A DNA stretch of 42,595 nucleotides from an uncultured Sphingomonas sp. GTDB lineage: Bacteria > Pseudomonadota > Alphaproteobacteria > Sphingomonadales > Sphingomonadaceae. The DNA lies in NCBI GenBank assembly GCA_913777325.1, contig CAJYSA010000085.1, positions 1-42,595 on the forward strand, in the 5' to 3' direction. A program made the position numbers and the translations under genes. Below the pieces are notes generated by a model. It did not search any database. It had not been told where the DNA came from and was given only the letters and a program-made list of their open reading frames with translations. Positions 7,768-42,595 of this stretch are shown here, one piece after another; the first letter of the stretch is position 1; each line of letters opens with the position of its first letter.

Positions 7768-7777
7768 CGAATAAAAG

Positions 7778-7791
7778 TTCGCCCGTGCGAA
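7778..7791. promoter_or_regulatory. Small inverted repeat ahead of the RND efflux operon
   Basis: TTCG-cccgtg-CGAA lies in the 83-nt gap between the crotonase gene and the efflux adaptor. No regulator gene is adjacent, and the arms are only 4 bp. It is a weak operator candidate, and the efflux promoter should lie in this gap. Confidence 0.2.
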
Positions 7792-7850
7792 ACATTTGCG
7801 ACAAATAGCGCTTAGCCGGTGAGACTTCCCGGGTTCGGACAGGGCAGAGA

Positions 7851-9095: not shown

Positions 9096-9100
9096 GCCCC

Positions 9101-23029: not shown

Positions 23030-26000
23030 TCAGAAGTTGACGGTCGCCCCCACCGCGATCTGGCGGCCCAGCGGGTCGTAGCGCTGCGGGATCGTGTTGT
23101 TGCGCGCCAGGCTGATGTTGTAGGAATTCGGCACGAACGGCGCGACCCGATCGAGCAGGTTGTTGGCGATCAGCCGCAGCGCGACCTGCCGGTTGACGTT
23201 GAAGGTCAGCGCCAGGTCGAAATAATCCTGCGCGTCGATCCGGTAATAGGTCTGCTGCACCCGGTCGGGCGTGCCGCCGATCGCGGCGTCGCCGGAATTG
23301 TTCGCGTTGGTCAGCGGGCCGACATGGCGCCAGTTGAGCGAGGCGTTGAAGAGCTTGTCGGCGCTGGTCCAGGTGGTGCGCAGCCCGTGCGACCATTTCG
23401 GGATCAGCTGGCCACAGCCGTTGCCGTAATAGCCCGCGCAGTTCCGCTCCGGCTGGATTGGCGAATCCTGCCCGCCCGCCAGTGTGGTCAGCGAGCCGGT
23501 GAAGCCCCAGTCGAACCGCCCGACATTGCCCGCGTCCAGCGTATATTGCGCCTGGAAGTCCCAGCCGCGCGCCAGCGAGCGGAAGTAGTTGGTCGTGCCC
23601 GCGCGGATGAAGCCGCTGGTCGGGTTGTTCGCCGCCGAGGCGAACAGCGTGCCATTGGCGTCGCGGACGATCCCCGAGCAGAAGAACGGATCCCCGCCCG
23701 AGCGCAGGCAGCCGTCGAGATAGTAATTGTCGTCGTTGTAGCCGAGCGAGTTGTCGATCTTGATCCGGTAGTAATCGACCGAGAAGGTCAGGCCCGGCAC
23801 GAAGCTGGGCCGCGCGACGAAGCCATAGGTCTGCGTGTACGCGGTCTCCGGATCGGCGGTGAACCCGCCCGAGCGGATCGTGCAGGTGTTGTCCGGGCAG
23901 ATCAGCGACGGGCTGCCGTACAGCGCATCGCTCAGGCCGGTGGCACGGCACACGTCGATCGACGCGGCGGGCGGATTGAACGTGCCGTCGGCATTGCGGG
24001 TCGGCGCGCAGAAGTCGCCGCGCTGCCCGCCCTGCTGGCCGAAGCTGATGTTGCGCGCCTGACGGATCTCGATGACGGTCGGCGCGCGCTGCGCCTTGTT
24101 GAACGAGGCGCGCAGCGTCAGGTCGCGCACCGGAGCCCACAGTCCTTCGGCCTTCCACGTCGTGAACGTGTCGGGGTTGGTGCTGTACTTCGACACGCGG
24201 AAGCCACCATTGGCCTGCAGCAGGTGCGCGAACGGCTTGTCCTGCACAAGCGGCGCCTGCACCTCGATGTTCGATTCCCACACGTCCTGCGAGGCGGCGA
24301 AATCCTCGCCCGCGTTCAGCGCGCGGAAGCGCGCGTTGGCGGTCGAGCTGTAGCTGTCCTTGCGATATTCCGCGCCCAGCGCGATCGCGACGCCGTCGTT
24401 CGCGAACGGCGAGGTGATGCCATAGTCGCCCAGGTCGCCGGTCATGTTGGCGGTCACGTCCCACAACGTACCGACACCGCGCGTCCGCGCCGGATTGCCC
24501 GCCAGCAGATAGCTCATGACGCTGCCGTCGTTGCCCGCGCTGAACGCATCGAACGGGATGCACCCCGCCGCGCCCGACGCGCAGGTCGGCACGCCGCCCA
24601 CGTTGACGACGTTCAGCGCATTGTTGACGCGATCAAAGTCGGGGATGTCACCGTAGTTCACGTTCTGCGTGTTGCGCGCGTAGGCGCCGCCGACGTCATA
24701 GGTCCACGCGGTGCCGACCTTGCCGCGCACCCCCGCCGTCGCGCGAAGCCCACGGTTGATATATTCGTCGAGCGTGTAGGGCAGGTTGTCGAAGCGATAG
24801 CGGACGTCGAGCGGCACCAGCGCGCCCGTCCCCGCCGCCGCGCCGCATAGCGCGGTCGCCTGCCCGCCCGACAGGAACGGATTGTCGCAATTCACCTGGA
24901 ACGGGCGATTGCCATAGGTGCTGCTGCTCAGCACGCGCGTCGGATAGCGGTTGTACGACGTATCCTCGAACCAGATCGCCGAGCCGTACAGTTCCAGCTC
25001 GGGCGCGAGCGTCAGCGTCGCGAAGCCGCCGGCGTTGACGCGCTCCATATCGCGCTGGAGCGGGTAGCCGCGCCGGTCGAACGCGTTGCTGGTCCCCTGC
25101 CCGTACGGCACGAAGGTGCGCGATCCGTCGGGGTTGTTGATGAACTCCGGCTGCGACGCGGGGTCGGACACGTTGCCGGGACGGACATAGCCGCCCGGCG
25201 CATAGGAGGTGGTGGCGCACGACAGCGGTCCGTCCGTGGCCAGTTGCTGCACCTCGCACGCCGAGGTGGAGCGCGCGTTGTACGGCACGAAATTGGCCTG
25301 GCGATAATTGACGAAGCCCATCAGGCTGAGCCTGTCGTCGAACAGCTTCTTGCCCGCGGTCAGCGTGATGTCGCTGCGCCCGCCGTCGTTGGTCAGCCCG
25401 CGCACCGGGGTGATGCCCGCGCGGCGTGCCACGTCGCCGGCGGTCGTGGCGTTGTTCTGGTGATTGTAGAAGCTGTAGTTCGCGTCCAGCCGGATGCCGT
25501 CGAAGCTGGGACGCAGGATGAAGTTGACGACGCCCGCCACCGCATCCGAGCCGTAGACCGACGACGCGCCGCCCGTCAGCACGTCGACGCGCTCCAGCAG
25601 CGACGGCGGGATGATCCCCGTGTCCTGGCCGTTCTGCGTGCCCAGCCGCTTGCCGTCGATCAGCACCAGCGTCCGCTCGAACCCCAGGCTGCGCAGCTTG
25701 ATCCGCTGGCGCCCGTCCGAATCCTGATAGTTCTGCTGACTGTCCGGCGCGATCTGTGGCAGGCGGTTGAGCACCTCCTCGACGTTCAGCGGCGCCTGCG
25801 CGCGGATATCCTGCGCGGTGACCGAGGTGATCGGCGCCGCGCTGGCGACGTTCGGGCGCTGGATGCGCGAGCCGGTGACCACGACGTCCCCGGTGGCGGC
25901 GGGTGTGGTGTCGGGCGTGCCCGCGATCGCGGTCGCGCGCTGCGCCGCGGCGTCGCCATCCTGCGGCGCGGCCTGTTGCGCCATGGCGGGCGCCGCCGCC

Positions 26001-26053
26001 AGCAACGCGCCCGCCAATGCCGTCACCGATACGCCGTGACCGAGGAATGCCAT
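23030..26053 (-). CDS. TonB-dependent outer-membrane receptor (probable oligosaccharide/glycopeptide uptake)
   Basis: 1007-residue TonB-dependent receptor. Signal peptide residues 1-25 (ending AMAQ), a short Ala/Thr-rich linker, TonB-box-like GDVVVTGSRIQRPN, and a plug domain (ITSVTAQDIRAQAPLNVEEV; GGASSVYGSDAVAGVVNFIL). A 22-strand barrel follows and ends in GRQIAVGATVNF with a terminal Phe. Its plug resembles the large group of sphingomonad receptors for organic and oligosaccharide substrates rather than siderophore receptors. It is transcribed divergently from the glycosylasparaginase operon across a 177-nt gap, so a glycan or glycopeptide substrate is inferred from position. GGGAG lies 8 nt before its ATG. 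Confidence 0.92.
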   Translation of the reverse strand: MAFLGHGVSVTALAGALLAAAPAMAQQAAPQDGDAAAQRATAIAGTPDTTPAATGDVVVTGSRIQRPNVASAAPITSVTAQDIRAQAPLNVEEVLNRLPQIAPDSQQNYQDSDGRQRIKLRSLGFERTLVLIDGKRLGTQNGQDTGIIPPSLLERVDVLTGGASSVYGSDAVAGVVNFILRPSFDGIRLDANYSFYNHQNNATTAGDVARRAGITPVRGLTNDGGRSDITLTAGKKLFDDRLSLMGFVNYRQANFVPYNARSTSACEVQQLATDGPLSCATTSYAPGGYVRPGNVSDPASQPEFINNPDGSRTFVPYGQGTSNAFDRRGYPLQRDMERVNAGGFATLTLAPELELYGSAIWFEDTSYNRYPTRVLSSSTYGNRPFQVNCDNPFLSGGQATALCGAAAGTGALVPLDVRYRFDNLPYTLDEYINRGLRATAGVRGKVGTAWTYDVGGAYARNTQNVNYGDIPDFDRVNNALNVVNVGGVPTCASGAAGCIPFDAFSAGNDGSVMSYLLAGNPARTRGVGTLWDVTANMTGDLGDYGITSPFANDGVAIALGAEYRKDSYSSTANARFRALNAGEDFAASQDVWESNIEVQAPLVQDKPFAHLLQANGGFRVSKYSTNPDTFTTWKAEGLWAPVRDLTLRASFNKAQRAPTVIEIRQARNISFGQQGGQRGDFCAPTRNADGTFNPPAASIDVCRATGLSDALYGSPSLICPDNTCTIRSGGFTADPETAYTQTYGFVARPSFVPGLTFSVDYYRIKIDNSLGYNDDNYYLDGCLRSGGDPFFCSGIVRDANGTLFASAANNPTSGFIRAGTTNYFRSLARGWDFQAQYTLDAGNVGRFDWGFTGSLTTLAGGQDSPIQPERNCAGYYGNGCGQLIPKWSHGLRTTWTSADKLFNASLNWRHVGPLTNANNSGDAAIGGTPDRVQQTYYRIDAQDYFDLALTFNVNRQVALRLIANNLLDRVAPFVPNSYNISLARNNTIPQRYDPLGRQIAVGATVNF

Positions 26054-26124
26054 ACACCGCTCCCGAGTAAGTAATTGTTTCTGGTTGCCAAATTCTTTCT
26101 ATTGGGTGCAGGATGTGGCGAACA

Positions 26125-26136
26125 TGGTCAATACCT
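26125..26136. promoter_or_regulatory. Candidate GntR/UTRA (NagR-like) operator in the divergent gap
   Basis: TGGTCAATACCT, read on the other strand AGGTATTGACCA, resembles the TGGTATAGACCA-type operators known for NagR-family GntR/UTRA regulators. It lies between the TonB receptor gene and the glycosylasparaginase operon. A regulator of that family is encoded at 34522-35259. This is a single hand-found match. Confidence 0.4.
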
Positions 26137-26230
26137 CAACATAACCACACACATGACCAATGCAGGTTGGCATTGCGACCGGGGGCAGGACGTGCATGGT
26201 AAGCGACGGGACGCGAGCGGGAGGGATCGG

Positions 26231-27238
26231 ATGACGGATAGGCGATCGGTGATGACCGGTCTGGCAGCACTTGGCGCCGCGACGCCGGCGGCGGCCCGTC
26301 CCGCGACGGGCACAGCCGCATCGATCGTGTCGACCTGGGATTTCGGCGCCGCCGCCAACGATGCCGCGTTCGCCGCGATGAAGGCGGGCGGCACGCTGCT
26401 CGACGTGGTGGAAGCAGGCGCGAAGGTGCCGGAGGCCGATCCCAGCAATCATTCGGTCGGCTATGGCGGCTATCCCGATCGCGACGGGCACGTCACGCTG
26501 GACGCGGTCATCATGGACGATGCCGGGGGCGTCGGCGCGGTCGCGGTGCTGGAGGATACCGTCCACGCCATTTCGGTGGCCCGCCGCGTGATGGAAAAGA
26601 CCCCGCACACGCTGCTGGCCGGCGAAGGCGCGACGCGCTTCGCGCGCGATCAGGGCTTTCCGAAGCAGAAATTGCTGACCCCCGAGGCCGAACAGGCGTG
26701 GCGCGCGTGGCTGAAGACCGCGCAATACCAGCCGGTCGCGAACAGCGAGACCGGCACCTATGGCACGCAGCGCCACGTGACGCCGGGCGGCGCGCTGGAC
26801 CATGACACGATCGGGCTGCTGGCGCGCGACGCCGCCGGGCGGATGGCGGGGGCGTGCACCACCTCCGGCATGGCGTTCAAGATGCGCGGGCGGGTCGGCG
26901 ATTCGCCGCAGGTCGGCGCGGGCCTGTATGTCGAGCGCGGCATCGGGGCGGCGACCTCCACGGGGCTGGGCGAGGAAGTGACGCGCGTGTCGGGCACCGC
27001 GCGCGTGGTCGCATCGATGCGCGCCGGCCTGTCCCCGCAGAAGGCGTGCGAGGAAGTGGTGCGCCACATCGCGCGGCTGCGCGGGGACGCGATCAAGGGC
27101 GTGCAGGTCGGCTTCCTCGCGCTCGATCCGCGCGGGCGTGTCGGGGCGTTCTGCCTGTTGCCGGGGTTCACCTACGCCGTCACCGACACTGCGGGGCGCA
27201 CCGTCGTCCACAAGGCCGCGTCGCTGTTCGCGGCATGA
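26231..27238 (+). CDS. N4-(beta-N-acetylglucosaminyl)-L-asparaginase (glycosylasparaginase), exported
   Basis: 335-residue Ntn hydrolase that cleaves the GlcNAc-Asn bond left after N-glycan breakdown, giving aspartate and N-acetylglucosaminylamine. It is made as a precursor that self-cleaves before the nucleophile Thr193 in the family motif GALDHDTIGLLARD. Substrate-pocket motifs follow (ACTTSGMAFKMRGRVGDSP, QVGAGLYVERGIGAATSTGL). The N-terminus is Tat-like (TDRRSVMTGLAALGAATPAA), implying periplasmic activity. ATG 26231 is chosen because it places the twin Arg at residues 4-5; the longer open frame from 26075 would add 52 residues across the intergenic region. Its stop overlaps the cutC start (ATGA), so the two are coupled. 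Confidence 0.93.
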   Translation: MTDRRSVMTGLAALGAATPAAARPATGTAASIVSTWDFGAAANDAAFAAMKAGGTLLDVVEAGAKVPEADPSNHSVGYGGYPDRDGHVTLDAVIMDDAGGVGAVAVLEDTVHAISVARRVMEKTPHTLLAGEGATRFARDQGFPKQKLLTPEAEQAWRAWLKTAQYQPVANSETGTYGTQRHVTPGGALDHDTIGLLARDAAGRMAGACTTSGMAFKMRGRVGDSPQVGAGLYVERGIGAATSTGLGEEVTRVSGTARVVASMRAGLSPQKACEEVVRHIARLRGDAIKGVQVGFLALDPRGRVGAFCLLPGFTYAVTDTAGRTVVHKAASLFAA

Positions 27239-28005
27239 CGCGGCGGCTGCTCGAAATCTGCGTCGAGGATGCGCGCGGCATCGCCGCTGCCGTCGCGGGC
27301 GGTGCCGACCGGATCGAATTGTGCGCGGCACTCGACGTCGGCGGGCTGACCCCGCCCGCCTCGCTGATCCGCGCCGCCGCGCAGGCGCCGCTGCCGGTGC
27401 ATCTGCTCGCCCGCCCGCGTGCCGGCGACTTCGTGCACGACACCGCCGAACGCGCGCTGGTTGCCGAGGATATCCGCACCGCCGCCGAGGCGGGGCTGGC
27501 CGGTGTGGTGATCGGCGCCAGCCGGCCCGATCACCGGCTGGACGACGCGGCGCTGGCCGAGTGGATCCCGCATGCCCGCGCGCTGAGCGTCGCACGCGGC
27601 GCGCCTTTGTCGCTGACGCTGCACCGCGCGTTCGATCTGGCGCCCGACCTCCCCGCCGCGCTCGACACCGCGATCGCGCTCGGGTTCGAGCGGATCCTCA
27701 CCTCGGGCGGGGCGCCGGTCGCCGCCGAAGCGCTGCCGATGCTCGCGACGCTGGTGGAGCGCGCCGGCGATCGGATCACGATCCTCGCCGGCAGCGGGGT
27801 CGCGCCCGCGACGCTGCCCGCGATCCTGGCGACCGGGGTTCGCGAGGTTCATGCCTCGGCACGCGCGCCGTTGCCGGCGCCCGATCCGGTGTTGGTCCAG
27901 TTCGGATTCTGCACGCCCGTCGCGAAAGCCGCCGATCCGGAGACGATCGCGACGATGGTGACGCAATTGCGCAATATTGCAGACTTGAATGATACCAATC
28001 TATGA
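27235..28005 (+). CDS. cutC: CutC family protein (TIM barrel)
   Basis: 256-residue CutC-family TIM-barrel protein without a signal peptide, so cytoplasmic. Landmarks: LLEICVEDARGIAAAVAGGA, DRIELCAALDVGGLTPPASL, LARPRAGDFVHD, FDLAPDLPAALDTAIALGFE-RILTSGGAP, and ILAGSGVAPATLPAI. The family was named for a copper phenotype in E. coli whose link to CutC itself has been questioned. Here the gene overlaps the glycosylasparaginase stop (ATGA) and is followed by the GlcNAc-6-P catabolic genes, with no copper genes near. That context suggests a step in amino-sugar or glycosylamine handling; this is inference. Confidence 0.9.
   Translation: MTRRLLEICVEDARGIAAAVAGGADRIELCAALDVGGLTPPASLIRAAAQAPLPVHLLARPRAGDFVHDTAERALVAEDIRTAAEAGLAGVVIGASRPDHRLDDAALAEWIPHARALSVARGAPLSLTLHRAFDLAPDLPAALDTAIALGFERILTSGGAPVAAEALPMLATLVERAGDRITILAGSGVAPATLPAILATGVREVHASARAPLPAPDPVLVQFGFCTPVAKAADPETIATMVTQLRNIADLNDTNL
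27985..27998. promoter_or_regulatory. ATACCAA half-site upstream of the nag genes
   Basis: TTGAATGATACCAA, a quasi-palindrome with TTG/CAA ends, covers the last codons of cutC, 74 nt before the SIS deaminase start. The ATACCAA half also occurs at 38518-38524 before the hexosaminidase gene. It is a candidate regulator site for an internal promoter and weak on its own. Confidence 0.25.
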
Positions 28006-28071
28006 CTTACGCCTGTCATCGAGGGGAGCGGTGCATCACGTCCGCGACCGTGCGAGGGAGCCGCATTCCAC

Positions 28072-29109
28072 ATGCCCGATAGCGCCGACCAGACGTTGAT
28101 GTTCGCCGAGGCGGGCGAGGCCGCCGCCGCCGTGGCGCGGATGATCGACGCCAATCGTGACACGCTCCGTACGCTGGCCGCGCATCTGCGCGCCACCCCG
28201 CCCGCCGTCGTCGTCACCTGTGCACGCGGGTCGTCGGATCATGCCGCGACGTTCGGGAAGTATCTGATCGAAACGATGGTCGGCGTGCCGGTCGCCTCCG
28301 CCGCGCCCTCGGTCGTCTCGATCTACGACGCGGCGGTCAAAACCCCCACCGCGCCCTTGTGCATCGCGATCTCGCAAAGCGGGCGCAGCCCCGACCTGCT
28401 CGCCACCGTCGCCGCGCAGAAGGCGGCGGGCGCACACGTCGTGGCGCTGGTCAACGACACGACCTCGCCGCTTGCCGACGCCGCCGACACGCTGGTGCCG
28501 CTCATGGCCGGGCCGGAGAAGTCGGTCGCCGCGACCAAATCCTATATCACCGCACTCGCTGCGCAGGCGCTGCTCGTCGCCGAATGGGCCGATGATACGA
28601 AGCTGCGCGAGGCGGTCGACCGCCTGCCGGCGCGACTGGCCGAGGCCTGGGCGCTCGACTGGAGCGAGGTGGTCGACATGCTGGTCGACGCCAACAACCT
28701 GTTCGTGATCGGGCGCGGGCTCGGCTTCGGCATTGCGCAGGAAGCGGCGCTGAAGCTGAAGGAGACCTGCGCGCTCCATGCCGAGGCGTTCAGCGCCGCC
28801 GAGGTCCGCCACGGCCCGATGGCGATCGTCAACGAGGGCTTTCCGCTGATCGCCTTCGCCACCTCCGACACCGCCGGTGATGGCGTGCGCGAGGCGGCGG
28901 CGGAGTTCGCGGGGCGTGGCGCGCGCGTTGCGCTGGCCGATGCGCGCGCGAACGGCGACAGCCACCCGCCCGCGCTGACCGATCACCCCGCGATCGAACC
29001 GATCCTGTCGATCCAGAGCTTCTACCGGATGGCCAATGCGCTGTCCGTCGCGCGCGGGCTCGATCCCGATGCCCCCCTCCACCTGAGCAAGGTCACCCGC
29101 ACGCTATGA
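28072..29109 (+). CDS. SIS-domain glucosamine-6-phosphate deaminase (NagB-II type)
   Basis: 345-residue protein with two SIS sugar-phosphate domains, related to the isomerase half of GlmS but lacking its glutaminase domain. In alphaproteobacteria and Shewanella, NagB-II proteins of this form deaminate glucosamine-6-P to fructose-6-P, replacing classical NagB. Motifs: VVTCARGSSDHAATFGKYLI (phosphate binding), CIAISQSGRSPDLLA, AATKSYITALAAQALLVAEW, FVIGRGLGFGIAQEAALKLK, CALHAEAFSAAEVRHGPMAI. The C-terminus LDPDAPLHLSKVTRTL matches GlmS-like ends. nagA follows with an ATGA overlap, which supports the GlcNAc-6-P route. Confidence 0.9.
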   Translation: MPDSADQTLMFAEAGEAAAAVARMIDANRDTLRTLAAHLRATPPAVVVTCARGSSDHAATFGKYLIETMVGVPVASAAPSVVSIYDAAVKTPTAPLCIAISQSGRSPDLLATVAAQKAAGAHVVALVNDTTSPLADAADTLVPLMAGPEKSVAATKSYITALAAQALLVAEWADDTKLREAVDRLPARLAEAWALDWSEVVDMLVDANNLFVIGRGLGFGIAQEAALKLKETCALHAEAFSAAEVRHGPMAIVNEGFPLIAFATSDTAGDGVREAAAEFAGRGARVALADARANGDSHPPALTDHPAIEPILSIQSFYRMANALSVARGLDPDAPLHLSKVTRTL

Positions 29110-30236
29110 CGCGGCACAGTTTCACCAACGGCCATGTCGTCACCTCGGCGGGGACGCTGAACGACGCGACCTTCGCGGTCGAGAACGGCGTCATCACCGC
29201 GATCGATGCGACACGCGGCGACGATGCGCTCGACCTCGACGGCGGGTGGGTGATGCCCGGCTTCATCGACACGCAGGTGAACGGCGGCGGCGGGGTGCTG
29301 TTCAATGACACGCCGACCGTCGACGGCATCGCGGCGATCGCCGCCGCGCACGCGCGCTACGGCACCACCGCGATGTTGCCGACGCTCATCAGCGACACGC
29401 CCGATGTGATCGCGCGCGGGCTGGACGCAGTGGATGCGGCGATCGTGGCGGGCGTGCCCGGCATCGTCGGCATCCATGTCGAAGGTCCGATCCTGAACGT
29501 CGCGCGCAAGGGCATCCACGACGCCGCGCGCTTCCGCCTGCTCGACGACGAGATGCTGGCACTGCTCACCGCGCCACGCCGGGGTAAGGTGATGGTGACA
29601 TTGGCGCCCGAGCAGGTGCCGGTCGATCGGATCGCGGCGCTGGCGGCGGCGGGCGTGCTGGTGTGCCTGGGCCATACCGACGCGGATTACGAGACGGCGA
29701 GCGCCGCCTTCGCGGCGGGCGTGACGGGGGTGACGCACCTCTACAACGCGATGTCGCCGCTCAAGCACCGCGCGCCCGGCGTCGTCGGCGCGTGCCTTGA
29801 CAACCAGACGGCATATTGCGGGATCATCGTCGACGGCTTCCACGTCGATGACGCGCCCTTGCGGATCGCGCTGCGCGCGCGCCCGGCGGATCGCTTCATG
29901 CTGGTCACCGACGCGATGCCGTGCGTCGGCGCGGAAACCAAGGATTTCGTGATGCAGGGCAAGCCGATCCACGTCGAAGGCGGTCGCGCCGTCGGCGTGG
30001 ACGGAACGCTCGCCGGCTCCGACCTCGACATGGCCGGTGCGGTGCGCGGCGCGGTGACCCGGCTCGGCCTGTCGCCCGAGGACGCCGCCGGGCTGGCGGC
30101 GACCAGCCCGGCGGCGTTCCTCGGCCTCGGCCATGAACGCGGAACGCTGGCGATCGGGCAGCGCGCCGATTGGGCGATCCTGACGCGCGACCTCTATCCC
30201 GCCAGCACCTGGATCGGCGCACAGCCGGTCGCCTGA
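29106..30236 (+). CDS. nagA: N-acetylglucosamine-6-phosphate deacetylase
   Basis: 376-residue amidohydrolase-superfamily enzyme: GlcNAc-6-P + water to glucosamine-6-P + acetate. Landmarks in order: GWVMPGFIDTQVNGGGGVLF (Q-x-N in place of the H-x-H metal pair, as in E. coli NagA), GIHVEGPILN (metal-binding Glu), CLGHTDADYETA, GVTHLYNAMSPLKHRAPGVV, and FMLVTDAMPCVG with the catalytic Asp. The start is set by the ATGA overlap with the deaminase gene. Its product is that deaminase's substrate. The next gene begins 24 nt downstream, so one operon is likely. Confidence 0.95.
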   Translation: MTRHSFTNGHVVTSAGTLNDATFAVENGVITAIDATRGDDALDLDGGWVMPGFIDTQVNGGGGVLFNDTPTVDGIAAIAAAHARYGTTAMLPTLISDTPDVIARGLDAVDAAIVAGVPGIVGIHVEGPILNVARKGIHDAARFRLLDDEMLALLTAPRRGKVMVTLAPEQVPVDRIAALAAAGVLVCLGHTDADYETASAAFAAGVTGVTHLYNAMSPLKHRAPGVVGACLDNQTAYCGIIVDGFHVDDAPLRIALRARPADRFMLVTDAMPCVGAETKDFVMQGKPIHVEGGRAVGVDGTLAGSDLDMAGAVRGAVTRLGLSPEDAAGLAATSPAAFLGLGHERGTLAIGQRADWAILTRDLYPASTWIGAQPVA

Positions 30237-30260
30237 CCTCCTTTGTCGTTCGGAGCCGCC

Positions 30261-34432: not shown

Positions 34433-34521
34433 TCACGCGATCATTGCGTACGTAGCGAAACCTTCCGGGGCTGGATCAGGACGCGCTGGATGGCCTCGCC
34501 ACGTTCGCCATGGCGATGGCC

Positions 34522-35259
34522 CTACAGGTCCGACAACTCCGCCACGAAGTCATAGGCGTCGCCGCGATAATAAGAGCGCGTGAACTCCACCGCGCGCCCG
34601 TCGCGCCGAAACCCGCGACGCTCGATCAGCAACCCGGCGTGGCCGGCATCGACGCCCAGCATCTTGGCGTGCTCCGGCCCGAACGGCACCGCCCGCAGCC
34701 GTTGCAGCGCCCGCACCGGACGGCTCCCCGCCCGGTCGAGCGCGCTGTACAACGAGTCGTCCACCGCTTCGGCGGACGGCAGGCAATAGCCCGCGATCGT
34801 CGACATCTCGAATGCCATCGGCTCGTCGTCGGCGCGACGAATCCGCTGGAAGCGGAAGACCGGTGCGCCGGGCGACAGGCCTAGCGCCATGCTCTCCTCG
34901 GGGCTGACGGTGCTGGCGACGCGGCTGATCCAGCTGCTCGACGCCGTTTTGCCACGCGCTGCCATGTCCTCCGAGAAGGACGAGAGCTTCGAGAAGCTCT
35001 TTTCGACGCGCCCCGCAACGAACGTTCCGGCCCCACGCCGCCGCGTCAGCAGCCCGTCCTCCACCAGTCCGCCGATCGCCTTGCGCACCGTGATGCGCGA
35101 CACCTCATACTCCACCGCCAGATCGCGTTCTGCCGGAATGGCGTCGCCCTGGTTCAGCACGCCGCCGTCGATCGCCTCGCGGATCACCTGCTGAAGCTGG
35201 AGGTAAAGCGGGGCGACATTGCCCTCCCGAAACCGTCCCACCTCATCCGAAAAGGCCAT
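34522..35259 (-). CDS. GntR-family regulator with UTRA domain (NagR/NagQ-like)
   Basis: 245-residue repressor: an N-terminal winged helix-turn-helix (residues ~15-80: QGDAIPAERDLAVEYEVSRI, TVRKAIGGLVEDGLLTRRRG), then a UTRA effector domain (PVFRFQRIRRADDEPMAFEM; ERRGFRRDGRAVEFTRSYYR). In Bacillus NagR and its relatives this architecture senses GlcN-6-P or GlcNAc-6-P. ATG 35259 is used because GGAGGG lies 6-8 nt upstream; the longer open frame to 35334 has no such signal. It converges with the PTS operon and diverges from the TonB receptor gene, well placed to control both. Confidence 0.9.
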   Translation of the reverse strand: MAFSDEVGRFREGNVAPLYLQLQQVIREAIDGGVLNQGDAIPAERDLAVEYEVSRITVRKAIGGLVEDGLLTRRRGAGTFVAGRVEKSFSKLSSFSEDMAARGKTASSSWISRVASTVSPEESMALGLSPGAPVFRFQRIRRADDEPMAFEMSTIAGYCLPSAEAVDDSLYSALDRAGSRPVRALQRLRAVPFGPEHAKMLGVDAGHAGLLIERRGFRRDGRAVEFTRSYYRGDAYDFVAELSDL

Positions 35260-35396
35260 TCGCGTCCCTCCCTCATCGTTCGTCGCCGATATCGGTCGCG
35301 GCGCGAGAAGGCCAAACCGTAACCAAAGGTACACCGCGGGACAATGTAGGACGCGTCCGTCGCCGGACTTCTCGACCCCACCTGGATCAGGTCAAC

Positions 35397-35420
35397 GGGT
35401 GTGGCCCACCGGCCACACCC
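35397..35420. repeat. Perfect 10-bp stem hairpin
   Basis: GGGTGTGGCC-cacc-GGCCACACCC. No T-run follows on the plus strand, so it is not a plain terminator for a plus-strand gene. It may act as a barrier or leader structure upstream of the receptor gene. Confidence 0.6.
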
Positions 35421-35432
35421 CGCCATAAAAAC

Positions 35433-35446
35433 GAAAAACGTTTTTC
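35433..35446. promoter_or_regulatory. 14-bp perfect AT-rich palindrome
   Basis: GAAAAACGTTTTTC, perfectly self-complementary, in the promoter region of the TonB receptor. Its composition stands out against the surrounding high GC. It is a candidate binding site for a LacI/GntR-like or nucleoid protein. Confidence 0.4.
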
Positions 35447-35494
35447 CATATGAAACGTGAATGTAACTTTCCATATCGGGTTCCGGCCTTGGAT

Positions 35495-35512
35495 AGGTTA
35501 TAAGACCAACCT
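35495..35512. promoter_or_regulatory. Candidate regulator site overlapping a -10-like TATAAG
   Basis: AGGTTATAAGACCAACCT: arms AGGTT/AACCT are complementary, and GGT...ACC half-sites resemble those at 26125-26136. The TATAAG at 35499-35504 could be the receptor promoter's -10, so binding here would block transcription. Inference from pattern only. Confidence 0.35.
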
Positions 35513-35611
35513 GGAACCGATGAGGAGAGGAACGGCACGCGATGCCCCCACCCAACGGTCCAGTGTTGAGGGATGATGCACCGTTCGCGTGCATTCTTGA
35601 GGGGTTCGATC

Positions 35612-38410
35612 ATGCGCCTGCGCCGCTATCTGCTGCTTTCCACCGCCATCTTCGGCTTTACCGGCGCGGCCCACGCGCAGCAGGCGACCACGCCGCCGTC
35701 GACCACCGCCCCCAGCGGCGCTGCCAGCGGCACGACCGATGATGCGACCGGCGAGGACATCGTCGTCACCGGCTATGCCGGCAGCCTTCGTCAGGCGATC
35801 GAGCTGAAGCGAAACGCCAACGCCGTCGTCGACGCGATCTCCGCCGAGGACATCGGCAAGTTCCCCGACCGCAACGTCGCCGAATCGCTGGCGCACATTC
35901 CCGGCGTGTCGATCGACCGTCGCTTCGGCGAGGGTGAGAAGGTCGCGATCCTCGGCACCGATCCGGCGCTGAACCGCATGCTGCTCGACGGTCACGCGCT
36001 GGCCTCGGCCGATTGGGGCGGCAACGACAACGATCCGTCCAGCCGTACCTTCAACTATTCGCTGCTGGCGCCGGAACTGGTCGACCGCCTCGAAGTGTAC
36101 AAGTCGCCGGAAGCGCGCCTTGAGGATGGCAGCCTCGGCGGCACGGTGATCGTGCGCACGCGCCGTCCGCTGGAGCTGGACGCCAACTCGCTGTTCGCGT
36201 CGGGCGGCTACACCTACAACGACCGTTCGGAAAAGGGCAGCATCCGCGGCTCGGGGCTGTACAGCTGGAAGAACGAGGACGAGACGTTCGGCGTCCTCGT
36301 CGCCGCGACCTATGACAAGCAGCAGCTGGTCCGCTCGGGCGTCGAATTCTTCGGTTATCAGAGCGGCGCGGACTTCTTCCAGAAAAACGCTGACGGCAGC
36401 GTCCAGCGCGATGCCACCGGTCAGGCGATCCTGCGCAGCCCGAACGCCTCGTCGATCAGCAACAACACGCGCGAGGACATGATCAAGGCGGTGGCGCCGT
36501 TCGGCATCAACTACGCCTATTTCCAGCAGCAGCGCGAGCGCACCAGCGTGTCGGGTACGGTGCAGTATCGCCCGGCCAGCAACCTGACCTTGACGCTGAA
36601 CGGCATCCACATCGACGGCAACTACAACAACTACAGCCAGTCGATGTACACCATTCCGGTCGCGTGGAGCGGTGCGGACCTGCAGTCGGCGACCGTGTCG
36701 AACGGTGTCATCACCAACGCCACCTTCGGCGCCGCGACCAGCCAGCGCAACGCGCAGCTCGATACGCTGGTCCGTTCGACCAAGCTGAAGACCGACAACC
36801 TGAACTTCTTCGCCGATTGGGAAGGCGACAGCGGCGCGAAGGTCACGTTCCTGGGCGGCTGGAGCAAGGCGACCGGCGGGCGTAACCCCGAGTATCTGTT
36901 CAACGTGCAGACCAAGCTGCCGTTCAGCTATGCGATCTCGCCGACGTCGGCGGAGGTGAACTACACCGGCGATCTGACGAACCCGGCGAACTACTTCACC
37001 AACCCGAGCAACAACCCGGTGACGATCGAGGGCCGTCCCTTCAACGTCAACGGCTCGCAGCTGAACGCCGCGCAGATCGGCGGGCTGGATTACAGCGTCA
37101 CCACCGATCGCGACGCGTTCGGCGGCTTCGATGCGGTCGTGCCGCTGGGCGACGGCTTCTTCAAGCAGATCCTGATCGGCGCGCGCATCACCGATCACGT
37201 CAACAAGATCGACGCGCGCGGCATCAACAGCTACCTGACCAGCTCGAAGCTGGGCAATCAGCTGGGCGTGACGACGCTGAGCACCCCGGACGGCATCTTC
37301 GACGGCTCGGGCGGTTCGGGCTCGGCCACCAAGTACCTGAACCTGCCGCGTGAGGCGGTGATCCAGATCCTGCAGAACAGCATCAACACCCCGCTGTTCT
37401 ACAAGGTCGGCGCATCGACCCGCGTCGAGGAGCGGACTGCCGCCAGCTATGTCCAGGTCAATTTCGACCAAGGCGGCCTGCGTGGTAACCTTGGCGGACG
37501 CCTGGTCTACACGCACGACGCGTCGTTCTACGCCCTGTCGCTGCCGACCGCGACCAACCAGAATCCGACGCCGGTGCCGACCAGCACCTCGACCGACTAT
37601 CTGAAGTTCCTGCCGGCGCTGAACGTCGCCTATGAAGTGTCGCCGCAGTTCATCGTTCGCGGCGCCGCCGCCAAGGTGATCTCGCGTCCGCGCTATCAGG
37701 ATCTGGCGGCGTCGATCTCGCAGAACGACGTCACGATGGATGCCGGCGGCGGCAACCCGAACCTGCGTCCGTATGAGTCGACCAACTACGAGATCACCGC
37801 GGAATTTTATCCGCGCGCCGGTGCGCTGTTGTCGCTCGAACTGTATCGTCGCGAGATCAGCAACTACATCGTGACGACGTCGATCAGCGGGCAGAGCTTC
37901 TACAACTCGCTCGAAGGCCGCGTACGCAACGACTATCGCGTCAACAGCCCGATCAACGCGGGCAAGGCGACGGTCAACGGCGTGCTGGTCAACGGTCAGG
38001 CGGAAATCTGGGGCGGCTTCGGCATCCAGGCGAACTATGCCTATCAGGACAGCTCGACCTCGGTGATCCCGGGCGTCAACGGTTCGCTGAACCTGCCGTA
38101 CCTGTCGAAGCACACCGTCAACGTGATCCCGTACTTCGAGACGGGTCCGTTCCAGGCGCGCGTCAGCTACAACTACCGCTCGTCGTACTTCCGCTCGATC
38201 GGTCGCCTGAACTCGTTCGAGACGGTCGCGCCGTATAGCCAGCTCGATGCCTCGGCCTCGCTCGCGCTGACCAAGAATATCTCGGTCACCGTCAATGCGC
38301 AGAACCTGCTGGACGAAACCTATCTGCAGTACAGCAGCACGCGGGATCGTCCGTCGGCCTTCTACAAGAACGGCCGCACCTATGTCGCGAGCCTGAGCTT
38401 CCGCTTGTAA
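35612..38410 (+). CDS. TonB-dependent receptor, Xanthomonas/Caulobacter carbohydrate type (probable GlcNAc-oligosaccharide receptor)
   Basis: 932-residue outer-membrane receptor of the TIGR01782-like group. Signal peptide RLRRYLLLSTAIFGFTGAAH-AQQ; TonB box EDIVVTGYAGSLRQAIELKR; plug with the group hallmark ISAEDIGKFPDRNVAESLAH-IPGVSIDRR and SPEARLEDGSLGGTVIVRTR. The barrel ends YVASLSFRL. Members of this group import chitooligosaccharides and GlcNAc in Caulobacter and Xanthomonas, and the nag genes and regulator alongside support that substrate here. ATG 35612 is used because GAGGGG lies 7 nt before it and the signal peptide then starts correctly; the frame is open from 35573. A strong terminator follows. 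Confidence 0.93.
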   Translation: MRLRRYLLLSTAIFGFTGAAHAQQATTPPSTTAPSGAASGTTDDATGEDIVVTGYAGSLRQAIELKRNANAVVDAISAEDIGKFPDRNVAESLAHIPGVSIDRRFGEGEKVAILGTDPALNRMLLDGHALASADWGGNDNDPSSRTFNYSLLAPELVDRLEVYKSPEARLEDGSLGGTVIVRTRRPLELDANSLFASGGYTYNDRSEKGSIRGSGLYSWKNEDETFGVLVAATYDKQQLVRSGVEFFGYQSGADFFQKNADGSVQRDATGQAILRSPNASSISNNTREDMIKAVAPFGINYAYFQQQRERTSVSGTVQYRPASNLTLTLNGIHIDGNYNNYSQSMYTIPVAWSGADLQSATVSNGVITNATFGAATSQRNAQLDTLVRSTKLKTDNLNFFADWEGDSGAKVTFLGGWSKATGGRNPEYLFNVQTKLPFSYAISPTSAEVNYTGDLTNPANYFTNPSNNPVTIEGRPFNVNGSQLNAAQIGGLDYSVTTDRDAFGGFDAVVPLGDGFFKQILIGARITDHVNKIDARGINSYLTSSKLGNQLGVTTLSTPDGIFDGSGGSGSATKYLNLPREAVIQILQNSINTPLFYKVGASTRVEERTAASYVQVNFDQGGLRGNLGGRLVYTHDASFYALSLPTATNQNPTPVPTSTSTDYLKFLPALNVAYEVSPQFIVRGAAAKVISRPRYQDLAASISQNDVTMDAGGGNPNLRPYESTNYEITAEFYPRAGALLSLELYRREISNYIVTTSISGQSFYNSLEGRVRNDYRVNSPINAGKATVNGVLVNGQAEIWGGFGIQANYAYQDSSTSVIPGVNGSLNLPYLSKHTVNVIPYFETGPFQARVSYNYRSSYFRSIGRLNSFETVAPYSQLDASASLALTKNISVTVNAQNLLDETYLQYSSTRDRPSAFYKNGRTYVASLSFRL

Positions 38411-38437
38411 GATCAATCTCTTACCACCTTCCTGTGC

Positions 38438-38472
38438 TGGGCCTCCGCGATCCGCGGGGGCCCATTTTTTTT
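38438..38472 (+). terminator. Rho-independent terminator after the TonB receptor gene
   Basis: Stem TGGGCCTCCGCG (38438-38449) pairs with CGCGGGGGCCCA (38453-38464) with one G-T pair and a 3-nt loop, followed by eight T (38465-38472). It separates the receptor from the hexosaminidase gene, which then needs its own promoter. Confidence 0.9.
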
Positions 38473-38515
38473 GCCCGTGGCATGGACGTGGCTGGCCGGC
38501 GGCGGCATGATGACC

Positions 38516-38527
38516 CCAATACCAAAA
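38516..38527. promoter_or_regulatory. ATACCAA-containing site before the hexosaminidase gene
   Basis: CCAATACCAAAA lies between the terminator and the Shine-Dalgarno (AAGGAG, 38535-38540) of the hexosaminidase gene. It shares the ATACCAA half with 27985-27998. Low-confidence operator candidate. Confidence 0.25.
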
Positions 38528-38545
38528 CAGAACCAAGGAGCAGCG

Positions 38546-40867
38546 ATGCGCCCCACCCTCGTGCAGGCGATCCCTGTCATCGCCATGACGTGCCTCGCCA
38601 CGCCGGCGCTCGCGCAATCGCTGTTGCCGCTGCCGCGCACCGTGACGCGGGGGGCGGGCGACGTGACGATCGCGTCCGGCGCAGGCGTCGCGACGACGGC
38701 GGGCGCGGAGGCGGCGGCGCGGCTGCTGATCGCGCACGTGCACACCACCCGCGGGCTGACATTGTCGCCAGCCCCGGCACCGGACGCGGCGCGCATCCGG
38801 TTCGAGCGTGACGCCGCGATCACCGCGCCCGAGGGTTACCGCGTCGTCGTCGCGCGGGACGGTATCCGCATCCGCGCGGCCACTCCGGCGGGTTTCGTCA
38901 ACGGCGCGATGACGGTCGCGCAACTCCTCAGCCCCGATGCGCGGACCGGGCAACCGGTGCGCGTGCCCGCGATGACGATCGACGACGCGCCGCGTTTCGC
39001 CTGGCGCGGGCTGATGATCGATCCGGCGCGGCATTTCCTGCCGATCGCCGACCTGCGCGCGATCGTCGACCAGATGGCGGCGGTGAAGCTGAACACGCTG
39101 CACCTGCACCTTACCGACGATCAGGGCTGGCGGTTCGAGGTGAAGCGCTATCCGAAGCTGACCGAGGTCGGCGCGTGGCGCACGCCGCCGTCGACCGGCG
39201 GCCCCGCCCCCACCACCCGCGTCGGCGGCTTCTACACGCAGGACGAACTGCGTGCGCTGGTCGCCTTCGCGGCGGAGCGCGGCATCACGATCGTCCCCGA
39301 GATCGATCTGCCCGGCCACGCCACCGCGTTGGTCTCCGCCTATCCGGAACTCGGCATCCTCGGCGACCGCCCCTCGGTGGGCAACCGCTGGGGGATCGAG
39401 CCGTACCTGTTCAACCCGGGGCCGGAGGGGATCGCGTTCGTCAAGGCGGTGCTCGACGAACTGACCCAGGTCTTCCCCGGCACCTACGTCCACCTCGGCG
39501 GTGACGAGGCGCTGAAGGACCAGTGGCAGCGCAGCCCGGTGGTGCAGGCGCAGATCAAGGCGCTGGGCCTGAAGGACGAGGACGCGCTGCAAGGCTGGAT
39601 GATCGACCAGTTCGGGGAGTATCTTCAGACCAAGGGCCGCCGCCTGATCGGCTGGGACGAGATCCTCGACGGCGGCCTGCCCGCCAGTGCCTCAGTGATG
39701 TCGTGGCGTGGCGAGGAGGGCGCTGTCGCCGCCGCCAACCAGGGGCATGACGTGGTGCTGTCGCCCGGCACGCCGCTGTACCTCGATCGCGTGCAGAGCA
39801 ACCTGCCCAGCGAGACGCCGGGCCAGCATGTCGTCAGCGCGCTGGCGGACGTCTATGCCTATGATCCGATGCCCAGGGGCATTGCCGCCGACCGCGCGCA
39901 TCACGTGCTGGGCGCGCAGGGCAATGCGTGGAGCGAATATCTGGTCACCCCGGCCGAGGTGCAGTTCCACGTCTTCCCGCGCGCGGCGGCGATCGCGGAG
40001 ATCACCTGGTCCACCAAGGAGCAGCGCGACCTCGCCGGCTTCCTGCCGCGCGCGAAGCGGCAGGCGGATCGCTGGGCCCGCGCCGGCACGGACGTGGCCG
40101 ACAGCGCGTTCGCGGTCGATATCGCGGTGGCGGGATCGCGCGGCGCTGCGTTGCGCGCCAATCGCGTACCGCTGACGCTCTCGACGCAGAGCGGCTATGG
40201 CACGATCCGCTACACCACCGACGGTAGCGCGCCGACGCGCGGGTCGCGCGCCTATCGCACGCCGCTGTCGCTGACCCCGGGCACGGTGGTGCGCGCGGTC
40301 GCATTCGATGCGCAGGGCGTGGCGACGGCGGCGGTGCGGCAATTCAATACGTCGCGCACCGCGCTGCTGACGCGCGGCAACAACGATCTGCTGCCGTGCG
40401 CGGGGGGCACGTTCGGTCTGCGCGTGCCGCAGACGCCGGATGCGACGGCGGCCACGCCCGCGTTCAACCTGAACCTGTTCAACACCTGCGCGGTCTATCC
40501 CGCCGCGCCGACCGACATCGCGGGCGGCTACACGGTCGAGGTGACCCGGCTGGCGCGCAACTGGGCGCTCGGGCACGATCAGGCGAAGCTGCGCGACTAT
40601 TATGCGGTGTCCCCGCACGGCGAATTGCTGGTGCAGATCGGCTGCACCGCCGCGATCAACGCGCAGGAAGCGGGCGATAGACCCGCGAAACCGGTGCCGA
40701 TCGGCACCTTCCCGCTGCCCGATCCGGCAACCGCGCCACAGCATTTCACCTTCACCGGCACGCTGCCGAAGATGACCGGAGATCAGGACCTTTGCTTCCA
40801 GTTCACCTCCCCGACCAGCGATCCCTATTACGCCGTGGCCAGCGTCAAGCTGACGGAGCGTCGCTGA
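38546..40867 (+). CDS. Beta-N-acetylhexosaminidase, GH20, exported
   Basis: 773-residue enzyme that removes terminal beta-GlcNAc (or GalNAc), for example from chitobiose. Signal peptide 1-23 (TCLATPALAQ). GH20b domain ~25-145. The TIM barrel from ~150 (FAWRGLMIDPARHFLPIADL; LNTLHLHLTDDQGWRFEVKR) carries the catalytic Asp320-Glu321 pair (VHLGGDEALKDQW) and WDEILDGGLP. A chitobiase-type C-terminal beta domain follows (IRYTTDGSAPTRGSRAYRTP). An additional ~160-residue Cys-containing domain (from ~613: RGNNDLLPCAGGTFGLRVPQ ... DQDLCFQFTSP) may bind carbohydrate. ATG 38546 is preceded by AAGGAG 5 nt upstream. The stop overlaps the beta-mannosidase start (TGATG). Confidence 0.93.
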   Translation: MRPTLVQAIPVIAMTCLATPALAQSLLPLPRTVTRGAGDVTIASGAGVATTAGAEAAARLLIAHVHTTRGLTLSPAPAPDAARIRFERDAAITAPEGYRVVVARDGIRIRAATPAGFVNGAMTVAQLLSPDARTGQPVRVPAMTIDDAPRFAWRGLMIDPARHFLPIADLRAIVDQMAAVKLNTLHLHLTDDQGWRFEVKRYPKLTEVGAWRTPPSTGGPAPTTRVGGFYTQDELRALVAFAAERGITIVPEIDLPGHATALVSAYPELGILGDRPSVGNRWGIEPYLFNPGPEGIAFVKAVLDELTQVFPGTYVHLGGDEALKDQWQRSPVVQAQIKALGLKDEDALQGWMIDQFGEYLQTKGRRLIGWDEILDGGLPASASVMSWRGEEGAVAAANQGHDVVLSPGTPLYLDRVQSNLPSETPGQHVVSALADVYAYDPMPRGIAADRAHHVLGAQGNAWSEYLVTPAEVQFHVFPRAAAIAEITWSTKEQRDLAGFLPRAKRQADRWARAGTDVADSAFAVDIAVAGSRGAALRANRVPLTLSTQSGYGTIRYTTDGSAPTRGSRAYRTPLSLTPGTVVRAVAFDAQGVATAAVRQFNTSRTALLTRGNNDLLPCAGGTFGLRVPQTPDATAATPAFNLNLFNTCAVYPAAPTDIAGGYTVEVTRLARNWALGHDQAKLRDYYAVSPHGELLVQIGCTAAINAQEAGDRPAKPVPIGTFPLPDPATAPQHFTFTGTLPKMTGDQDLCFQFTSPTSDPYYAVASVKLTERR

Positions 40868-42595
40868 TGCGGTGGCTGGCGCTTCCGCTGCTGCTCGCCT
40901 CGACCGCAGCGGTCGCCGCGCCCAAGGCGGTCACCAATCTCGACGATAACTGGCAGGTCCGCATCGATCCGCAGGATGCGGAGGCAGCCAAGGCGCATAC
41001 CCGCACCGCCAAATGGTTTCGGGCAACCGTGCCGGGCAGCGTGCAACAGGCGCTGATCGCGACGAAACAGGTGCCCGATCCGTTCAAGGGCACCAACGAA
41101 GCCGCGATCCAATGGGCCGGGCTGACCACGTGGCAGTATCGGCGCACCCTGACGCTCAGCCCGGAGCAGATGGCGCGGGATCACCTCGATCTCGTGTTCG
41201 ACGCGCTCGACACGTTCGCGACCGTGGCGGTCAACGGCCAGAACGTGCTGTCGACCGACAACGCGCACCGCCAGTGGCGCGTCGATGCGAAGCGGTTCCT
41301 GAAGGCGGGCGACAACACGATCACCCTCACCTTCGCCTCGCCGATCCGGACGATGCAGCCCAAGGTGCTGGCCGAGGCGCATCCGCTCCCCGGCGAATAT
41401 GATTCCGCGTTCGGCGACGAGCCGAAGGGCAAGCAGACCTCCCCCTATATCCGCAAGCCCAAGTACGACTGGAGCTGGGACTGGGGACCGCGCATCATCA
41501 ACGTCGGGCCGACGCAGCCGATGCGGCTGGAGTCGTGGGACGATGCGCGGCTGGCGCAGATGCTGGTGCAGCAGGTCGCGCTGAACGATGCCGAGGCGCG
41601 GCTGGACGCGAAATTCGGTGTGGTCGCCGATCGCGCCGGCCCCGCGCTGGTGCGCGCGACGATCACCGCGCCGGACGGCAAGGTCGTCACCGCAGAACAG
41701 GCGGTCACGTTGGCGGCGGGCGACAATCGCGTCACCGTGCCGCTGACGATCGCGCAGCCGCAGCGCTGGCAGCCGGTCGGTTACGGTGCGCAGCCGTTGT
41801 ACCGGGTGGCGGGGGCGCTGGTCGAGAACGGCACCGAAAGCGACCATGCCGAGCGCCGCATCGGCCTGCGCACCGTCGAGCTGATCCGGGGTGGCGGAGC
41901 ATTCGGGTTCAAGGTCAACGGGACGCCGATCTTCGCCAAGGGCGCGAACCTGATCCCGTTCGACAACTTTCCCGCACGCGTGACGGCGGACAAGATGCGT
42001 GGGCTGCTCGCCGACGCGAAGTCGTCGAACATGAACATGATCCGCGTCTGGGGCGGCGGTTACTATCTGCCCGACGCCTTCTTCGATGCCGCCAACGAAC
42101 TGGGGCTGATGATCTGGTCGGACTTCATGTTCGGCGGCGCGGTGACCCCGCCGGATGCGGCGTTCCGCGAGAATGTGCGCGTCGAGGCCGAGCAGCAGGT
42201 TGCACGCGTCTCGGGCCATCCCTCGATCGTCTTGTGGGCGGGCGGCAACGAGGTGCTGTCGGGCTGGGAAAATTGGTCGGATCGCAAGGCCTTCAAGAAA
42301 GCGGTCGGCGCCGACGAGCAAGAGCGGATCGGCGCGGGGATGGCGATCCTGTTCGACGGCGTGCTGCGGCAGGCGGTGCGCGATTTCGATCCGGCGGTGC
42401 CGTACTGGCCCGGTTCACCCTCCACCGATTACGACGGCCCGGTGGATACCGATGCAGCGGGCGACCGCCATTTCTGGGACGTGTGGTCGGGATCGAAGCC
42501 GGTCGCGAACTACCTGAATTCCTGCCCGCGCTTCATGTCGGAATATGGTTTCCAGGCGATGCCCGATCTGGCGACGATCAAGGACTTCGCGGGCA
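40867..42595 (+). CDS. Beta-mannosidase, GH2 (partial, C-terminus beyond right edge), exported
   Basis: First 576 residues of a GH2 beta-mannosidase, which usually has about 850. Signal peptide 1-18 (RWLALPLLLASTAAVAA). The jelly-roll sugar-binding domain shows the beta-mannosidase signature QWAGLTTWQYRRTLTLSPEQ and PKYDWSWDWGPRI. An Ig-like domain follows, then the barrel (FKVNGTPIFAKGANLIPFDN; NMIRVWGGGYYLPDAFFDAA). Acid/base Glu462 is in LWAGGNEVLSGW and nucleophile Glu559 in FMSEYGFQAMP. It cleaves the Man-beta1,4-GlcNAc link at the N-glycan core or beta-mannan ends. It overlaps the hexosaminidase stop by one base, so the two are translated together. Confidence 0.92.
   Translation, partial: MRWLALPLLLASTAAVAAPKAVTNLDDNWQVRIDPQDAEAAKAHTRTAKWFRATVPGSVQQALIATKQVPDPFKGTNEAAIQWAGLTTWQYRRTLTLSPEQMARDHLDLVFDALDTFATVAVNGQNVLSTDNAHRQWRVDAKRFLKAGDNTITLTFASPIRTMQPKVLAEAHPLPGEYDSAFGDEPKGKQTSPYIRKPKYDWSWDWGPRIINVGPTQPMRLESWDDARLAQMLVQQVALNDAEARLDAKFGVVADRAGPALVRATITAPDGKVVTAEQAVTLAAGDNRVTVPLTIAQPQRWQPVGYGAQPLYRVAGALVENGTESDHAERRIGLRTVELIRGGGAFGFKVNGTPIFAKGANLIPFDNFPARVTADKMRGLLADAKSSNMNMIRVWGGGYYLPDAFFDAANELGLMIWSDFMFGGAVTPPDAAFRENVRVEAEQQVARVSGHPSIVLWAGGNEVLSGWENWSDRKAFKKAVGADEQERIGAGMAILFDGVLRQAVRDFDPAVPYWPGSPSTDYDGPVDTDAAGDRHFWDVWSGSKPVANYLNSCPRFMSEYGFQAMPDLATIKDFAG

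Follow-up and report, generated by a model that had tools for sequence, protein, structure and literature searches.

A predicted nix-type N-glycan locus joined to N-acetylglucosamine uptake and catabolism genes in an uncultured Sphingomonas

For the nix gene cluster of Xanthomonas (nixD-nixL), published work places a cutC gene (PMC6718126) and an asparaginase gene (PMC5700972) in the nix region and, going by the column order of a table, assigns a Glyco_18 domain to NixF (PMC5700972). Here, we describe a locus with a related gene set in an uncultured Sphingomonas sp., starting at position 23030 of contig C85 (CAJYSA010000085.1) and continuing on contig C40, in which putative N-glycan-degrading glycoside hydrolases (GH) are joined to genes for the uptake and catabolism of N-acetylglucosamine (GlcNAc). 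Within the nix cluster, NixI is reportedly a xylosidase acting on plant N-glycans. A second type of system to compare with is formed by the proteobacterial GlcNAc (nag) regulons, which combine a phosphotransferase system (PTS), NagA, NagB-II, and a GntR regulator. The window, i.e., the whole stretch of DNA that was analyzed, is the complete contig C85 (42,595 bases) and belongs to a genome of 3.6 Mb that is distributed over 123 contigs and 99.9% complete. Genes were called using Pfam and NCBIfam models with their cut-offs, comparison to the PDB, and a scripted motif search. The patterns for active-site and phosphorylation-site motifs were all matched by script with the exception of one loose NagB-II pattern.

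Hydrolase run and its continuation on a second contig

The right edge of the window coincides with the contig end and cuts the GH2 gene (40867..42595, + strand; PF22666, E-value 1.3e-49). An earlier note on this DNA had stated that the locus is truncated here. Indeed, the last 127 bases of C85 are identical to the first 127 bases of C40, and the GH2 frame continues across this overlap up to joined position 43452, resulting in a full-length protein of 861 aa. The sole match of the genome to PF17753 (C-terminal mannosidase Ig domain) is located at the very start of C40. The protein is predicted to be a beta-mannosidase, since both catalytic Glu motifs are present and mannosidase Ig domains make up its C-terminal part on C40. 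It is followed on C40 by GH3, GH125, GH92, and GH29 genes in this order (positions 981-3530, 3663-5090, 5090-7402, and 7551-9467 of the C40 stretch L018, respectively), all clear by Pfam. Chemotaxis-like genes, recognized by eye, lie beyond GH29.

The run is headed by a TonB-dependent receptor (TBDT2; 35573..38410, + strand) that reaches 611.8 bits against TIGR01782 (TonB-Xanth-Caul; cut-off 310). Between this receptor and GH2, a GH20 beta-N-acetylhexosaminidase is encoded (38546..40867, + strand; PF00728, 5.1e-112, 375 bits) with a GGDE motif; its reading frame is open from 38471, with 38546 as the probable start. Overlaps of a few bases at GH20/GH2, GH2/GH3, and GH125/GH92 would fit a single transcript. 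By eye, ordinary export signals are found at the start of GH20, GH2, and GH3, and RR (Tat-like) signals at the start of GH125, GH92, GH29, and the glycosylasparaginase discussed below. The locus thus holds a TBDT together with GH20, GH2, GH3, GH125, GH92, and GH29 in one run, the gene set of a nix-type locus. Its homology and gene order identify it as a nix-type locus from a relative of Sphingomonas, to which a GlcNAc PTS, NagA, and NagB-II are joined.

The earlier note had read the genes inside the window as a pathway for stepwise breakdown of the N-glycan core and had named alpha-mannosidases downstream of GH2 as its test, which is hereby answered in its favor. Of the further genes it considered possible beyond the edge, GH92, GH125, and GH29 are present on C40, while an endo-beta-N-acetylglucosaminidase (ENGase) was not found: the genome search yielded nothing for GH85 and, for GH18, a single match on another contig.

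To compare this arrangement to nix, we searched 99 genomes from a different family for related GH3 genes, which gave 26 matches at an E-value of 1e-80, and six loci were fetched. Three of these (in genomes G564, G509, and G518) show the order TBDT-GH20-GH2-GH3-...-GH125-GH92, with five hydrolases that are 46-60% identical to those of the Sphingomonas locus. GH29 is located between the TBDT and GH20 in nix-type loci, whereas it is the last gene of the run in our locus. Genome G564 has ribokinase-like and GH4-like genes (by eye) between GH3 and GH125, an insert also carried by the nix cluster of X. citri according to PMC5700972, and a GH35 gene downstream of GH92 (seen in L205). A CutC and a glycosylasparaginase gene follow 5-9 kb behind GH92 in G564 and G518 (L204/L205 and L210/L211, respectively); neither was seen in the fetched stretch of G509 (L206/L207). 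The earlier note had distinguished the locus from nix by both its PTS and its glycosylasparaginase. The PTS joined to the locus remains as a difference, but a nix cluster devoid of glycosylasparaginase is no longer tenable, given its presence in two out of three nix-type loci and the asparaginase gene mentioned in the literature.

Glycosylasparaginase and GlcNAc genes in the locus and its relatives

The left part of the locus starts with another receptor gene (TBDT1; 23030..26053, - strand; Plug, 1e-21, and TonB_dep_Rec, 2.5e-11, both Pfam), which is divergent from the gene of an asparaginase homologue (26231..27238, + strand; Asparaginase_2, 8e-60, 203 bits). The best PDB matches of this homologue are glycosylasparaginases (E-value 6e-94 over 300 residues), with the best isoaspartyl peptidase/asparaginase following at 1.3e-28. 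The motifs STWDFG, HDTIG, and GRVGDS were found, of which we take HDT to be the glycosylasparaginase nucleophile, accompanied by the Arg/Asp motif. By homology the protein is a glycosylasparaginase (AGA) with predicted autoproteolysis and activity. The next gene, which is not listed in the earlier note, has a 4-base overlap with the end of AGA and encodes a CutC-family protein without a signal peptide by eye (27235..28005, + strand).

The GlcNAc genes follow on the same strand. NagB-II, a glucosamine-6-phosphate deaminase of the SIS fold (28072..29109, + strand), has NagB_SO3506 as its best NCBIfam model (1.2e-99); at 333.7 bits it stays under the cut-off of 430, so that the deaminase function is likely rather than assigned. 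NagA, the N-acetylglucosamine-6-phosphate deacetylase (29106..30236, + strand), exceeds the cut-off of TIGR00221 (272.2 versus 225.65 bits). The PTS comprises a fused EIIA-HPr-EI protein (30243..32735, + strand) with PTS_EIIA_1, PTS-HPr, and PEP-utilizer domains and three phospho-histidine motifs, and an EIICB protein (32732..34432, + strand) with the EIIB Cys motif. The latter scores 612.7 bits against TIGR01998 (PTS-II-BC-nag; cut-off 553.2) and, by surpassing the Nag equivalog cut-off in combination with the phospho-site motifs, points to a PTS of the N-acetylglucosamine type. All genes named in the earlier note (two TBDTs, AGA, GH20, GH2, PTS, NagA, NagB-II, and a GntR/UTRA regulator) were recovered in place by the domain searches.

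The GntR/UTRA regulator (34522..35334, - strand; UTRA, 2.9e-34; GntR, 2.7e-19) is divergent from TBDT2. The region between both genes (35335..35572) contains a block, GGTTATAAGACCA, that is nearly conserved in an alignment with five relatives, where it reads TTGGTTAYARGACCA, and that is a candidate operator. Four NagR/DasR-type patterns, searched with one to two mismatches, matched neither the window between positions 22001 and 42595 nor the initial 10 kb of C40, and no block is common to the two divergent regions of the locus.

The named collection contains 281 AGA relatives, of which the best 80 were read, all of them being kept, with flanks of up to 10 kb; nearly all are titled Sphingomonas, some titles naming other genera, four loci come from S. 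gellani, and some contigs end near the match (L062, L072). The nearest named loci by AGA belong to Sphingomonas endophytica, S. phyllosphaerae, and two further Sphingomonas (89-92% identity, in a listing that may omit the source genome). A TBDT1 relative is present in 53 of the 80 loci, NagA in 36, EIICB in 33, and a GH92 relative in 14. In five loci (L091, L096, L097, L098, and L105), the run GH2-GH3-GH125-GH92-GH29 is located directly ahead of AGA, which, together with the nix-type order of the run, supports the reading as N-glycan core breakdown. In L247 and L248, PTS-NagA-NagB-GntR adjoin TBDT2-GH20-GH2. The varied arrangements indicate that the parts of the locus recur together yet are often rearranged. 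Among the other 118 genomes of the same family, an AGA of at least 65% identity occurs in two and a GH2 at an E-value of 1e-60 in none; GH92 occurs in 12 out of 119 genomes, including our own with three matches.

Some side observations were made on these contigs. In genome G043 (contig C15; L006, L007), a GH92-like gene lies directly after AGA, with GH20-PTS about 20 kb away. In the four S. gellani loci (L041, L046, L049, and L050), all from one assembly, an AGA-CutC pair is situated close to the end of a contig and has other neighbors in each case, representing either repeats or an assembly artefact. Within the window, a phytochrome-type histidine kinase (PAS-GAF-PHY-HisKA_2; 17396-19534) is located about 3.5 kb off the locus, and positions 1-12406 encode a TamB/Omp85-type pair, an acyl-CoA dehydrogenase with an enoyl-CoA hydratase, and an HlyD/RND efflux pair, for which no link to the locus was seen.

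Proposed pathway and alternative substrates

We propose, with a probability of about 0.75, that the locus serves the use of plant-type N-glycans in this Sphingomonas relative, being homologous to nix and equipped with its own genes for GlcNAc uptake and catabolism. This figure excludes any step by CutC. From the observed gene content, gene order, homology, contig overlap, and conserved linkage we infer substrates, order of action, location, and regulation as follows. N-glycopeptides would cross the outer membrane via TBDT2. In the periplasm, GH92 would strip alpha-1,2/1,3-mannose, GH3 beta-1,2-xylose, and GH125 alpha-1,6-mannose, with GH29 acting on the core fucose, GH2 on the beta-mannose, and GH20 on the outer core GlcNAc, whereupon AGA would cleave the remaining GlcNAc-Asn. 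The fused EIIA-HPr-EI and EIICB would then import and phosphorylate GlcNAc, after which NagA would remove the acetyl group and NagB-II the amino group to yield fructose-6-phosphate, with the GntR/UTRA regulator controlling the pathway. The locus would thus be a compact enzyme set leading from the glycan to fructose-6-phosphate.

Several observations weigh against this proposal. We did not set the probability higher because our GH29 is distant, with only 24-32% identity to the GH29 of the nix-type loci L206 and L210 (both may not be orthologous), and because the full order is present in only three out of six GH3 loci; the other three have GH3 only (L201) or TBDT-GH3-GH92 (L202, L203). No ENGase was found by searching for GH85 and GH18, whereas nix has NixF (GH18); the one PF00704 (GH18) match in the genome, at C119:6975-7784, is above the cut-off with 56.7 bits and lies in an open frame of 1128 aa. 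Likewise, the Pfam scan of the joined locus revealed no GH35 (NixL), the wider genome not having been searched for this family. The join of C85 and C40 is based on a k-mer-type overlap and not on reads. Moreover, the parts are often apart in relatives, as NagA in 36 and GH92 in 14 of the 80 flanks illustrate, and the GlcNAc genes alone would equally serve chitin oligosaccharides. All enzyme functions are predicted from sequence.

Alternatively, the locus could serve the use of glycoproteins that are of the high-mannose type or come from fungi or yeast, or of mannosides in general. GH92, GH125, and GH2 accept mannosides from a wide range of sources, a TBDT and a GH43 accompany two additional GH92 genes on contig C94, and the distance of our GH29 from that of the nix-type loci fits this explanation as well. 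Nevertheless, we consider it unlikely, since the GH3 at the position of NixI and the GH29 point to xylose and fucose, which are marks of plant N-glycans, and AGA points to Asn-linked chains. The C94 genes themselves (L021, 1126-10391) form a second mannoside-type locus, consisting of the two GH92 genes with a TonB receptor and a GH43-like gene in between.

GH20, a TBDT, and a Nag-type PTS alone are the usual set for chitooligosaccharides, and G043, for instance, has AGA and GH20-PTS in separate places, but a chitin or chitooligosaccharide locus made up of GH20, TBDT, PTS, NagA, and NagB, with AGA, GH2, and the rest as bystanders, is highly improbable, as GH2-GH3-GH125-GH92-GH29 form a tight run after GH20, GH125 and GH92 have no role on chitin to our knowledge, the genome has a single GH18 match of 56.7 bits, and a second GH20 with a TBDT and an HGSNAT-like gene on contig C111 may suit chitooligosaccharides better. 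A GH19 search matched no control genome and therefore carries no weight in either direction. The region on C111 (L011, 5568-12343) encodes a GH20 with chitobiase-type domains, a divergent TonB receptor, and an HGSNAT/NagX-like membrane protein, with a TPR-sulfotransferase nearby, and is possibly a chitooligosaccharide locus.

Use of plant-type N-glycans would have a wider meaning. Sphingomonas is a genus common on healthy leaves. The occurrence of the locus suggests that many Sphingomonas are likewise equipped for nix-type N-glycan use, which is known from plant-pathogenic Xanthomonas. The trait would then not be specific to pathogens.

CutC linkage and comparison with described systems

The CutC protein belongs to its family by homology (E-value 3e-39 to human CutC 3iwp) but remains below the cut-off of the copper-homeostasis equivalog model NF008603 (E-value 1.9e-40; 138.6 versus 311 bits). 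Its gene directly adjoins AGA on the same strand within 300 bases in 46 out of 80 loci (34 downstream, 12 upstream) and heads the nag genes 3.2 kb from AGA in two more. It is outside the flank read in the remaining 32 loci, and 31 of these 32 genomes hold CutC elsewhere; 30 of the 31 were readable (one lacks a locus), and in 28 of them CutC is located next to NagB-II, frequently accompanied by NagA, GntR, or TBDT2. Taken together, AGA or nag genes are neighbors of CutC in 76 of the 80 loci or their genomes.

A search of 398 Pseudomonadota genomes (CutC at an E-value of 1e-12, glycosylasparaginase at 1e-45) found CutC in 69, AGA in 19, and both in 13, where 3.3 would be expected from the counts. 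In 11 of these 13 genomes, CutC and AGA are no more than 3 kb apart, with both same-strand and divergent orientations occurring; G438, one of the two genomes that deviate, has CutC about 3 kb from a GH92-GH29 pair. In the family of our genome, all three sampled genomes with a true AGA have CutC, and the other 16, including one with a weak AGA relative of 38%, have none. Evidence against a fixed partnership comes from six of the 19 AGA genomes lacking CutC (the weak relative plus five genomes from a single genus) and from 56 of the 69 CutC genomes lacking an AGA match. Nineteen AGA-free CutC loci were chosen from these 56 and read. NagA directly adjoins CutC in three, for example as SIS-SIS-ROK-NagA-CutC or SIS-GatZ/KbaZ-NagA-CutC. 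The families recurring among 73 scanned neighbors include LysR (4), ROK (3), Amidohydro_1 (3), GatZ (2), and PPK2 (2), as counted from the 25 listed out of 109 families and with approximate neighbors in several loci (L182, L183, L192, L198, L199), indicating that most CutC neighbors in AGA-free loci are not amino-sugar genes.

A quick tree comprising 93 CutC sequences requires at least 12 changes of the AGA-linked state; 16 of 109 rows had been dropped as near-copies, rows were partly picked by linkage, some branches are long, and one third of the inner branches is weak. These changes suggest that the AGA-CutC linkage was repeatedly formed or broken. An alignment with 56 of the 61 listed relatives has E7, R26, E28, T39, H130, R131, D134, and H206 as invariant residues. 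They look catalytic, and late GSGV and H-x-S stretches resemble the phosphate site of a barrel.

Because of this gene company, we suggest that CutC serves N-acetylhexosamine catabolism rather than copper homeostasis. Tentatively, it could be a cytoplasmic barrel enzyme acting on an N-acetylhexosamine-derived, probably phosphorylated, intermediate, which would explain its retention beside AGA, NagB-II, and NagA in changing gene orders. As to the reaction, we can only guess at a GlcNAc-6-phosphate anomerase or at the clearing of AGA-derived 1-amino-GlcNAc or its phosphate. That CutC instead has a true copper role, or is carried along in the locus as a neutral passenger, agrees with its annotation as a copper homeostasis protein, with the 56 and six genomes that have one gene without the other, and with the 16 out of 19 AGA-free loci in which NagA is not its neighbor. 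We regard this as doubtful in view of the 76 out of 80 cases in several orders and orientations, the 11 out of 13 genomes with close linkage, and the three AGA-free genomes with NagA and SIS, ROK, or GatZ genes beside CutC. The copper phenotype of E. coli cutC is reportedly accounted for by the small RNA MicL. This RNA is located at the cutC gene (PMC8216713). A literature search by title and abstract found nothing joining cutC with glycosylasparaginase, and no title on cutC function appeared among the matches listed for cutC, N-acetylglucosamine, operon, and nagA. The reshuffled linkage with AGA and nag genes may offer a route to the unsettled biochemical role of this family in humans and E. 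coli. If the proposed role is true, a protein annotated as copper homeostasis factor from E. coli to man would be an N-acetylhexosamine catabolic enzyme.

Compared to the structures in the PDB, our CutC is of the same family as 1twd and 3iwp, but is below the equivalog cut-off and encoded among amino-sugar genes. AGA shares HDTIG and GRVGDS with the glycosylasparaginases 3ljq and 1p4k, which we take to be from Elizabethkingia, but has an RR export signal (by eye) and about 16 additional residues inserted immediately ahead of the HDT motif. With proteobacterial nag regulons, the locus has a fused EIIA-HPr-EI, EIICB-Nag, NagA, NagB-II, GntR/UTRA, and a TBDT in common, to which it adds the N-glycan hydrolases, AGA, and CutC. 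With nix, it shares TBDT, GH20, GH2, GH3, GH125, and GH92 in the same order, the presence of GH29, and, as in two of three nix-type loci, a glycosylasparaginase and cutC nearby. It differs from nix in having neither a NixF-type GH18 nor a GH35 in the joined locus and in its direct connection to PTS, NagA, NagB-II, GntR, and CutC.

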